NCBI GenBank assembly: GCA_945869195.1
Contig: CAMBNV010000003.1
Span: forward strand, 62,001 to 126,000
Source: Gemmatimonas phototrophica
GTDB lineage: Bacteria > Gemmatimonadota > Gemmatimonadetes > Gemmatimonadales > Gemmatimonadaceae
Length of the DNA: 64,000 nucleotides
Direction of reading: 5' to 3'
Position 1 is the first letter of the stretch. Every line of letters begins with the position of its first letter. The translations under genes were made by a program, and so were the position numbers. The notes below the pieces were generated by a model that saw nothing but the letters and a program-made list of their open reading frames with translations, did no database searches and had not been told where the DNA came from. Below are positions 57,870-61,031 of this stretch, piece after piece.

Positions 57870-57965
57870 GCGAGGGATGAGGAGGGGAGTGCTCTGGGCC
57901 GCCGGCCCGCGCGACGGGGGGCGCGGGAGGGGAGGGTGGGGCGGACCCGGTGAAGAGGGGAGCAG

Positions 57966-58039
<74 letters not shown>

Positions 58040-58667: not shown

Positions 58668-59258
58668 ATGATTGTTCTGCTGCAACTCGCCGCAGCGCTT
58701 GTGACGGCACCGGTCGACACCGTGCCGTTGCCCGAGCTCGCACCGCGGAATGTCCTCGTCGCCGTCACCCGGCTCTCGATGGGAGACACCGTCCCGCGAC
58801 CGCGACGAAAGTCCATCGAGCTGAGCGATGGCTATGAGACACGGCTCCGCATCCATCAGATCGCGAGCTATGCCACCATCCCGCTCTTCGCGGCGCAGGT
58901 GATCGTCGGCACCAACCTCTACAACGCCGATGCCAGCGGCACCAAGCGCCCCGAATGGGCCGTGAATGCGCATCGACCGCTGGCCTACGCACTCGGCGGC
59001 CTCTTCGCGGTGAACACCGTGACGGGGACGATGAACTGGTGGGAGACACGCCATCAGCCGGAAGGTCGGACCTGGCGAACTATCCACGCCGCCTTGATGC
59101 TTGCCAGCGATGCCGGTTTTGCCTACACGGGGTCGCTCGGCACTGACGCGAAGTCGTCGTCCCGCGACCGCGACCGCCATCGCAGGTGGGCGCTCGCCAG
59201 TTCGTCGCTCGCGCTCGCGAGCTACGTGATGATGCTGTCACCCTTCAGACAGGAATAG
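58668..59258 (+). CDS. Four-helix b561-like diheme membrane protein
   Basis: 196 aa; ATG follows GGAGAGG closely. After a short hydrophobic N-terminus (perhaps a signal) come four helices at about 64-83, 104-123, 138-155 and 173-191. Histidines H63, H102, H140 and H171 sit at the start of each helix, so H63/H140 fall on one membrane side and H102/H171 on the other, the bis-His diheme arrangement of cytochrome b561 folds. It probably carries electrons across the membrane, with the two Rieske proteins encoded next to it. The family assignment is from topology only. Confidence 0.65.
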   Translation: MIVLLQLAAALVTAPVDTVPLPELAPRNVLVAVTRLSMGDTVPRPRRKSIELSDGYETRLRIHQIASYATIPLFAAQVIVGTNLYNADASGTKRPEWAVNAHRPLAYALGGLFAVNTVTGTMNWWETRHQPEGRTWRTIHAALMLASDAGFAYTGSLGTDAKSSSRDRDRHRRWALASSSLALASYVMMLSPFRQE

Positions 59259-59266
59259 CCCCCGCT

Positions 59267-59785
59267 ATGAGCACCATCCCGACCGAGACCGGCATCCCCG
59301 CGTGTGCGGCACTGTGTGCGGCGATCGACGCCAAGCGCGGGGTCAACCGCCGCATCTTCCTGTCCGCGGCGACGATCGCCGCCGTCACCACCTTGCTCGA
59401 GGCCTGCGGTGGTGGGGAGGTCACCGGGCCCACCGGCACCGAGGGCACGCCGATTCCTCCCGCGACCGGTGGAGCATTGATCGTCACGCTCGCCAGCTTC
59501 CCGACGCTCGCGTCGGTTGGCGGCATCGCGAGAGTGGATGGTGGATCGGGGAGTCCCACGGCGCTTGTGCGTACCGGCGCGAGCACGTTTGTCGCGCTCT
59601 CGATGATCTGCACGCACGCCGGGACCACCGTCAACATCAGCGGGAGCGGCTTCCTCTGCCCCAACCACGGCGCCCAGTATGCATCGGACGGCAGCTGGGT
59701 GGGTGGTCAGCGGACGACCAGCCTCAGCGTCTTCACCAGCAACTTCAACGCCAGCGCCGGCACGGTAACGATCAGCCGCCCGTAG
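59267..59785 (+). CDS. Tat-exported Rieske [2Fe-2S] lipoprotein
   Basis: 172 aa. Twin-arginine signal NRRIFLSAATIAAV (RR at 28-29) that ends in a lipobox LLEACGG (C47), so it should be folded with its cluster, exported by Tat and lipid-anchored. The Rieske site is CTHAG (C115, H117) and CPNHG (C131, H134), with all four ligands. A Gly/Thr/Pro linker separates anchor and domain. It follows the diheme gene by 8 bp. The role is electron transfer; partners are inferred from order. Confidence 0.87.
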   Translation: MSTIPTETGIPACAALCAAIDAKRGVNRRIFLSAATIAAVTTLLEACGGGEVTGPTGTEGTPIPPATGGALIVTLASFPTLASVGGIARVDGGSGSPTALVRTGASTFVALSMICTHAGTTVNISGSGFLCPNHGAQYASDGSWVGGQRTTSLSVFTSNFNASAGTVTISRP

Positions 59786-59786
59786 C

Positions 59787-59948
59787 GGGGCAGCCTGCAC
59801 GCACGAGTATTTGCTCGCATTCTCCTGCAAGTGTCGCTACTTCTGTCCGAGCTGCCACGCCAAACGCCTCGCGATCTGGACGCAGTGGCTGGACACCACA
59901 CTCCTCGTGCCGGCGCCGCCTCCTCGGGGAGATCGCCCGCCTCGTTAG
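59787..59948 (+). pseudogene. IS91-family transposase fragment (zinc-binding N-terminus)
   Basis: Read from 59787, the frame gives CTHEYLLAFSC, KCRYFCPSCHAKRLAIW, matching the Cys-rich zinc-binding region that begins IS91/Y2 transposases (HEY-AFSCK-R-FCPSC--KR). It is cut off on both sides: no start codon, and a TAG at 59946 after a degenerate Pro-rich end. Neither the catalytic Tyr domain nor clear ends remain nearby. It lies between the two halves of the redox gene set. Confidence 0.78.
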
Positions 59949-60019
59949 TATTGCACTGTGCGTGTATAGAGGGCAGCGTCGCAGGTAGCGGCCGCCGGGA
60001 CCCGAACGTGGAGAGCGGA

Positions 60020-60520
60020 ATGTCGGTGATCGAGACGGTGGTGGCGCTGGCCAAGCCCTGGGCGGACTTCTATGCGGACTCCACTCCCGTTGGCACGGCC
60101 GTGACCTTCCTGCACATCGGCGGCATCATGGTCGGCGGTGGCTTCGCGATGACCTCCGACCGTGCTGCGCTCGGGGCGGTGAAGGGGAGCGACGAGGATC
60201 GGAGACGCATCCTCCGCGACTTCGGCGCAATCCACCGGCCGGTACTGACCGCATTGACCGTGGTCGTTGCGTCCGGGGTCGCGATGATGCTTGCCGACGC
60301 CGAGACCTTGCTGGTCTCGCCGGTGTACTACACGAAAATCGGAATGTTCACGCTCCTGCTCGCCAACGGTTGGATGGTGCGCGAGACCGAACGCAACCTG
60401 GTGACGGACCCGACGGCGGGGAACAAGCTCTGGGGGCGCTTCACCCTGGGGGCACGCGCGAGTATCGCGCTCTGGCTGATGACGGCGTTCGTCGGTGTGG
60501 CACTGACGACTTCGGCCTGA
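60020..60520 (+). CDS. Four-helix membrane protein of the redox island
   Basis: 166 aa; the ATG follows a GGAGAG site. Four predicted helices at about 24-44, 74-92, 104-122 and 143-162. Conserved-looking polar residues include H32 inside helix 1 (FLHIGGIMVGGGF) and H72 before helix 2 (IHRPVL), which could bind heme or a metal. I do not recognise the family; it recalls CopD/DUF2269-like membrane proteins. It starts 22 bp before the second Rieske gene, so the two are one unit. Confidence 0.72.
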   Translation: MSVIETVVALAKPWADFYADSTPVGTAVTFLHIGGIMVGGGFAMTSDRAALGAVKGSDEDRRRILRDFGAIHRPVLTALTVVVASGVAMMLADAETLLVSPVYYTKIGMFTLLLANGWMVRETERNLVTDPTAGNKLWGRFTLGARASIALWLMTAFVGVALTTSA

Positions 60521-60542
60521 CTCGAACCGAACGATTCGACAG

Positions 60543-61031
60543 ATGAGCGACACGACCTGCACTGGCTGTGAGGTGGGGCGCCGCGTATTCCTGCGCGACG
60601 CGGCGATGGCGGCGGCCGCGCTGCTCGCGATGGGGACGACTGCGAAGGCGATGCCGATCCATTGGGTCAGCGCGCTCGGGAGCGCGCGCGCGGAAGCGCG
60701 CTACGCGATTCCGGCGGCCGACAGCGTGAATATCGACAAGGACCAGGAGGTGATCCTGGTGCGCGCGTCGGGGAAGGTATTCGCCTTCGCACTGAGCTGT
60801 CCGCACCAGAACACCGCGCTCAAGTGGTTGGCGTCGGACAAGCGCTTCCAGTGCCCCAAGCACAAGTCGAAGTACGCGCCCGATGGGACCTATCTCAAAG
60901 GACGTGCCACGCGGTCGATGGACCGCTACGAGGTCCGCAAGGACGGCGCGAATATCGTGGTGAACCTCGACAATCTGTACGAAGAGGATATGGACAAGGC
61001 GGAGTGGCCGCAGGCGTTTATCACTCCATAG
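60543..61031 (+). CDS. Tat-exported Rieske [2Fe-2S] protein
   Basis: 162 aa. N-terminus GRRVFLRDAAMAAAALLAMG is a Tat signal; an extra pair of cysteines precedes it (CTGC, residues 6-9). The Rieske ligands are C86/H88 (CPHQN) and C104/H107 (CPKHKSKY), spaced as in QcrA-like or assimilatory reductase proteins. No lipobox is seen, so it is soluble or held by an uncleaved signal. Likely electron carrier with the neighbouring membrane proteins. Confidence 0.87.
   Translation: MSDTTCTGCEVGRRVFLRDAAMAAAALLAMGTTAKAMPIHWVSALGSARAEARYAIPAADSVNIDKDQEVILVRASGKVFAFALSCPHQNTALKWLASDKRFQCPKHKSKYAPDGTYLKGRATRSMDRYEVRKDGANIVVNLDNLYEEDMDKAEWPQAFITP

Follow-up and report, generated by a model that had tools for sequence, protein, structure and literature searches.

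A conserved gene cassette in Gemmatimonadota encoding a predicted di-haem four-helix membrane protein and Tat-exported Rieske proteins

The core of cytochrome b561 consists of four helices and has two bis-His haem sites on opposite sides, the ligand pairs lying on helices 1/3 and 2/4; the protein binds two b haems and is reduced by a donor that is either soluble or in the membrane. The haem pairing of cytochrome b differs from this arrangement. Cytochrome b561 serves transmembrane electron transfer, and the Rieske/cytochrome b complexes (bc1, b6f and anammox R/b) join two transmembrane b haem sites to a Rieske protein. Arsenite oxidase AioB is a small Tat-exported Rieske protein, and HemJ, CopD, DUF2214 and DUF6644 have four TM helices, in which a His of TM1 and a Lys of TM3 are conserved. 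We analysed a 64,000-nucleotide stretch of Gemmatimonas phototrophica DNA (the window) carrying four genes, A to D. The features of the locus are as follows.

58668-59258, plus strand: gene A, four-helix membrane protein, predicted di-haem b (H63/H140, H102/H171)
59267-59785, plus strand: gene B, Tat lipoprotein with one Rieske [2Fe-2S] domain (PF00355, 2.3e-7)
59790-59918, plus strand: scrap of an IS91-family transposase zinc-binding domain (PF14319, 4.4e-7)
60020-60520, plus strand: gene C, four-TM protein, from an AlphaFold2 model and alignments
60543-61031, plus strand: gene D, Tat-exported Rieske protein (PF00355, 1.6e-9)

An ORF check of the window showed that the reading frames of A, B, C and D are all intact, and third-position GC amounts to 80-87% in each of them, in keeping with genuine coding regions. 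A 234-bp gap separates B from C and contains the PF14319 fragment. The first-pass annotation had described four plus-strand genes and a 234-bp IS91 scrap, and its coordinates and frames were borne out. A tRNA-Arg (ccg) gene on the minus strand (57965-58039) precedes the cassette by about 0.6 kb and, together with the IS91 scrap, suggests an insertion-prone spot. A large Ser/Thr protein kinase gene (PF00069, 61259-63988) stands directly downstream, outside the conserved cassette. The idea that the IS91 insertion had removed a second Rieske domain of B was rejected, the gap having no convincing similarity to such a domain. The host genome is 2.33 Mb in size and 98% complete, and the named relatives used for comparison are Gemmatimonadota.

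The alignment of 42 homologues of A showed that H63, H102, H140 and H171 are each invariant (42/42), a conservation on which the first-pass annotation had made its reading depend, while one further histidine, H129, is retained by just 11 of the 42. In a second set of 66 sequences, which came mostly from a public-genome scan and shares members with the first set, H63, H140 and H171 were found in 66/66 and H102 in 65/66, with one replacement. The protein starts with a hydrophobic N-terminus and a linker of about 40 residues, followed by four helices that an AlphaFold2 model, built on the alignment of the second set, places at residues 56-90, 96-127, 134-156 and 165-187 (pLDDT 95-98). In the model, every one of the four histidines lies 6-7 residues (two turns) into its own helix, at equal depth in successive helices. 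Because helices 1 and 3 run parallel in an up-down bundle, as do helices 2 and 4, H63/H140 would be level on one side of the membrane and H102/H171 on the other. The four histidines deviate from the most conserved face of their helices by 0, -1, -22 and -29 degrees, and the offsets still stay within 50 degrees with the named residues left out. From H63 to the conserved Gly81, and from H102 to the conserved Gly120, the distance is exactly 18 residues, or five turns, which puts each glycine on the face of its histidine, where the opposite haem would pack and need room. The invariance of the histidines and the confident four-helix model uphold the placement of the two pairs on opposite sides proposed earlier, and there is strong indirect evidence that A has two bis-His haem sites, predicted to lie on opposite sides of the membrane.

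The assignment of haems to sides is contradictory, since the loop charges put the N-linker and loop 2-3 inside by the positive-inside rule, whereas clear signal peptides in some homologues place the linker outside. The opposite-sides claim is independent of whether the N-linker lies inside or outside. The profile searches found no Pfam family above its cut-off and nothing meaningful among the sequences of solved structures in the PDB, and the Foldseek search returned generic four-helix bundles only, with cytochrome b561 at rank 29. A has the b561 architecture, with four core helices, one His in each and 1/3 + 2/4 pairing. For homology, PF01292 scored 15 bits (cut-off 30.1), and 4o7g gave a Foldseek E of 1.3 and a TM score of 0.44. 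The earlier label "b561-like" thus holds for the architecture of A but was not substantiated for homology.

The two Rieske proteins differ in their export signals. B has an RRxFL twin-arginine motif, the lipobox LEAC and a Rieske domain, and D has GRRVFL, an AxA cleavage site without a lipobox, and a Rieske domain, in agreement with the earlier description of one Tat lipoprotein and one plain Tat substrate. The twin-arginine motif recurs in 81/82 D and 79/80 B sequences, marking both as Tat substrates, and the lipobox residue C47 of B is kept in 29/30. The CxH...CxxH cluster ligands of the Rieske domain were present in 30/30 B and 26-27/27 D sequences, and both window proteins match PF00355 above its cut-off. 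The disulphide Cys pair typical of respiratory (bc1/b6f) Rieske proteins (CTHLGC, CPCHG) was found in none of the 82 D sequences, is absent from window B, and occurs in 20/80 B homologues. At the places of the potential-raising residues, D has Ser (82/82) and Tyr (79/82), whereas B homologues mostly have Ala and Phe, and window B has Ala and Tyr. Ser and Tyr add about 130 and 65 mV, respectively, to the potential of yeast Rieske (PMC12954380). D is therefore expected to be more oxidising than B, an expectation that concerns their relative order, absolute potentials being unpredictable from sequence. The best solved-structure match of D was 9rk3 (8.6e-12), which, judging by its title, belongs to the Kuenenia set of PMC12954380. 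In six related loci (L073, L080, L082, L085, L086 and L148), which include those with the C or D closest to the window, B is a tandem double-Rieske lipoprotein. Plasmid-borne relatives of D were considered and rejected, as the three weak cyanobacterial Rieske matches did not extend across most of D.

A pair of cysteines, absent from the first-pass annotation, lies just ahead of the twin arginine in both B and D. It was found in 120/128 Tat-type Rieske proteins of these loci, spaced usually as CxxC and otherwise mostly as CxxxC. In window B the pair is C13/C17 (n-region 59303-59353; C13 in 26/30 and C17 in 28/30), and in window D it is a CxxC at C6/C9 (n-region 60558-60584), the pair being present in 80/81 D sequences. 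Among 19 other candidate Tat signals, collected with a crude pattern, two had a Cys pair, both apparently truncated Rieske gene ends. No pair was seen in the non-Rieske Tat-like signals (0/17) or in bc-type Rieske proteins of the same order, recognised by their CxHLGC and CPCH boxes (0/11). Since the lipobox of B and the AxA site of D imply that the pair is lost on cleavage, it most likely acts before export, and may serve there in, for example, cluster loading or proofreading. We found no description of Cys-tagged Rieske Tat signals among the open-access papers searched; such signals offer a testable way into how the Tat pathway senses insertion of the Rieske cluster before export.

The AlphaFold2 model of C (mean pLDDT 95.3) showed four TM helices with a short N-terminal helix before them, confirming the four-helix call made for this protein at the outset. 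Across 60 sequences, H32, D47, H72, K106 and N116 never vary, and R48 and D93 are almost without exception; the invariant His and Lys residues had not featured in the first-pass annotation. Their positions in the helices divide six of these residues into two clusters at opposite membrane faces, H32/D93/K106 and D47/R48/H72, and the loop charges would put the H32/D93/K106 cluster on the outer side. The weak Pfam matches of C were to DUF2214 (17 of 25 members), DUF6644, UPF0093/HemJ and CopD, with a best E of 2.7e-6 among the 25 members; window C itself is below every curated Pfam cut-off (DUF6644, 15.1 of 27 bits). These matches point to C as a probable member of one broad group of small membrane proteins. 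The profile search gave no solved-structure relative of C and the fold search gave generic four-helix bundles, and no paper on the function of its DUF relatives was found among the open-access papers searched.

Gene A was found in 48/99 relatives and in 44/150 genomes across the phylum, these 44 all belonging to one order and three families. The public-genome scan of Gemmatimonadota yielded 80 A loci, 75 of which had a partner beside A and 62 both C and D. The co-occurrence on which the earlier reading also depended was therefore present, and the conserved-neighbourhood analysis across Gemmatimonadota that it had proposed showed genes A to D adjacent order-wide. The commonest gene order is A-C-D-B, followed by A-C-D, A-B-C-D (the window) and A-B, the last, without C and D, prevailing in the genus of the host. 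In compact forms the gaps mostly range from a slight overlap to some tens of bases. The odds ratios over 99 genomes were 348 for C/D, 48 for A/D and 28.5 for A/C, with p-values inflated by shared descent. Correlation between the distance matrices of A, C and D was 0.71-0.72; joint inheritance as a unit would produce such values, but so could the history of the species by itself.

D-like and C-like paralogues also stand alone. In the host's genus (L162, L164, L169 and L170), a solitary D-like Rieske gene lies near arginase-like genes, away from A-B. In several near relatives (L072, L074, L075, L078 and L093), about 2 kb of DNA separates A-B from C-D, and in L032, which is the same place as L075, an antisense ABC-F-like ATPase gene lies in this gap. 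No family among the flanking genes recurs with the cassette across families, and a fixed catalytic partner was rejected because the flanking clusters are housekeeping or lineage neighbours. A CxxCH protein with the motif IPQWAR(E/K)Y was seen near the cassette at two Longimicrobiaceae/Longimicrobium loci (L126 1865 and L103 1721), in L126 downstream of D, past a masked stretch. A linked outer-membrane monohaem cytochrome was rejected on the ground that the motif occurs in these two loci only.

The respiratory genes of the host were surveyed in the same way. PF00033 cytochrome b was found neither in the cassette nor in the whole genome, and no bc1, oxidase or catalytic gene lies near the cassette, extending the earlier remark that no such subunits were visible. 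The host has one haem-copper oxidase (aa3-type) with a cytochrome-c-motif subunit beside its gene, and an NrfD-type subunit in a gene cluster that reads as alternative complex III; beside it are encoded a protein with five CxxCH motifs and a Tat protein of 1012 residues. The only other Rieske protein in the genome is ferredoxin-like and encoded in a suf operon, so that no exported Rieske protein other than B and D was found in the host. The presence of A in relatives showed no association with a PF00033 protein (p 0.16). A role of the cassette as a general bc1 replacement was rejected given this result and the alternative complex III and aa3-type oxidase of the host.

The reading we lean towards is that A to D constitute a stand-alone transmembrane electron relay from haem b to Rieske. 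The invariant histidines, the co-occurrence and the absence of a family match lend support to the compact electron conduit outside the named complexes that the first-pass annotation had suggested. The genes, their conservation and co-occurrence, the ligand residues and the export signals are observed; we infer the cofactors, direction, complex formation, donor and acceptor as follows. Two b haems would be stacked across the membrane in A, as the invariant histidines and the model suggest, and would be reduced by a donor in or behind the membrane, most likely menaquinol. The haems would pass electrons on to the periplasmic side, where B (low-potential-type) and then D (higher-potential-type), ordered by their second-sphere residues, would act in series, and D would hand the electrons to a periplasmic acceptor. 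C would be a small partner in the membrane, and its His/Asp/Lys site on the periplasmic side might bind haem or quinol. The tandem double-Rieske B of six relatives fits such a relay, and the occurrence of A-B without C and D in one genus, together with the lone D relatives, indicates that the four proteins need not always form one complex. Against the relay stand the contradictory topology of A, its lack of a significant fold match to cytochrome b561 and of a Pfam family above cut-off, and the absence of a partner enzyme encoded near the cassette.

A periplasmic reductase or maturation module, in which A and C send electrons outward with MsrPQ-like logic for the Rieske proteins to reduce, for instance, a metal, haem or an oxidised protein as substrate, seems unlikely to us. 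HemJ (UPF0093) and CopD, which C weakly matches, are families handling haem precursors and copper, and the cassette occupies many neighbourhoods without a fixed catalytic partner, both of which would suit such a module; however, the matches fall below the Pfam cut-offs, and the cassette is not accompanied by a molybdoenzyme, a peroxidase or a thiol enzyme.

We consider it quite improbable that the cassette is a minimal Rieske/cytochrome-b-like quinol oxidase that arose independently of the cytochrome b family. Quinol would be split between D as the high-potential branch and the A haems as the low-potential branch, with C as the quinol site; two transmembrane haem sites and a Ser/Tyr Rieske protein do make up the minimal parts list of a Q-cycle, and the conserved His/Asp/Lys cluster of C faces the predicted periplasmic side. 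Yet A has no similarity to PF00033, its predicted 1/3 + 2/4 haem pairing departs from that of cytochrome b, D lacks a membrane anchor, the presence of A is unrelated to that of a PF00033 protein, and the host already has an alternative complex III. The bolder version, an independently evolved minimal haem-b/Rieske energy-converting complex with the n-region Cys pair as a pre-export Fe-S loading or proofreading tag, is likewise a long shot. If the cassette oxidises quinols, it would add a complex-III-like route alongside the alternative complex III.

That A to D are merely adjacent and do not cooperate is barely credible: the IS91 scrap breaks the B-C gap in the host and A-B or D-like genes stand alone elsewhere, but the genes are close neighbours throughout the order, in several arrangements and with little space between them, and this and the odds ratios of 28 to 348 speak against it.

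Set beside the known systems, the relay we favour shares with cytochrome b561 (PF03188/PF01292; 4o6y, 4o7g) the four-helix core and the 1/3 + 2/4 pairing of A, for which transmembrane electron transfer is likewise proposed, and differs from it in the Rieske partners, the N-terminal signal-like segment and linker, and the lack of a significant sequence or fold match. Like the Rieske/cytochrome b complexes, the cassette would combine two transmembrane b haem sites with Rieske proteins, whereas it has no cytochrome b family protein and no cytochrome c1 or f, and window B (a lipoprotein) and D (anchorless) have no disulphide pair. D resembles AioB in being small and Tat-exported and matches 4aay chain B (3.6e-9), but it reaches 30.9 of the 95.65 bits of the NCBIfam cut-off, and no AioA is encoded in the neighbourhood. 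C has the four TM helices, TM1 His and TM3 Lys of HemJ, CopD, DUF2214 and DUF6644, and is unlike them in its second invariant His (H72) and the conserved D47-R48. For A and C, no Pfam, NCBIfam or PDB match led to a named complex, and no paper on the cassette was found among the open-access papers searched. The parts, a di-haem four-helix membrane protein (as predicted) and Rieske proteins, are of known kinds, while nothing we found describes their combination or two of the families. In Gemmatimonadota, a phylum common in soils and lakes and poorly studied, this conserved module with two membrane proteins outside curated families widens the known couplings between membrane haem and exported iron-sulphur proteins.
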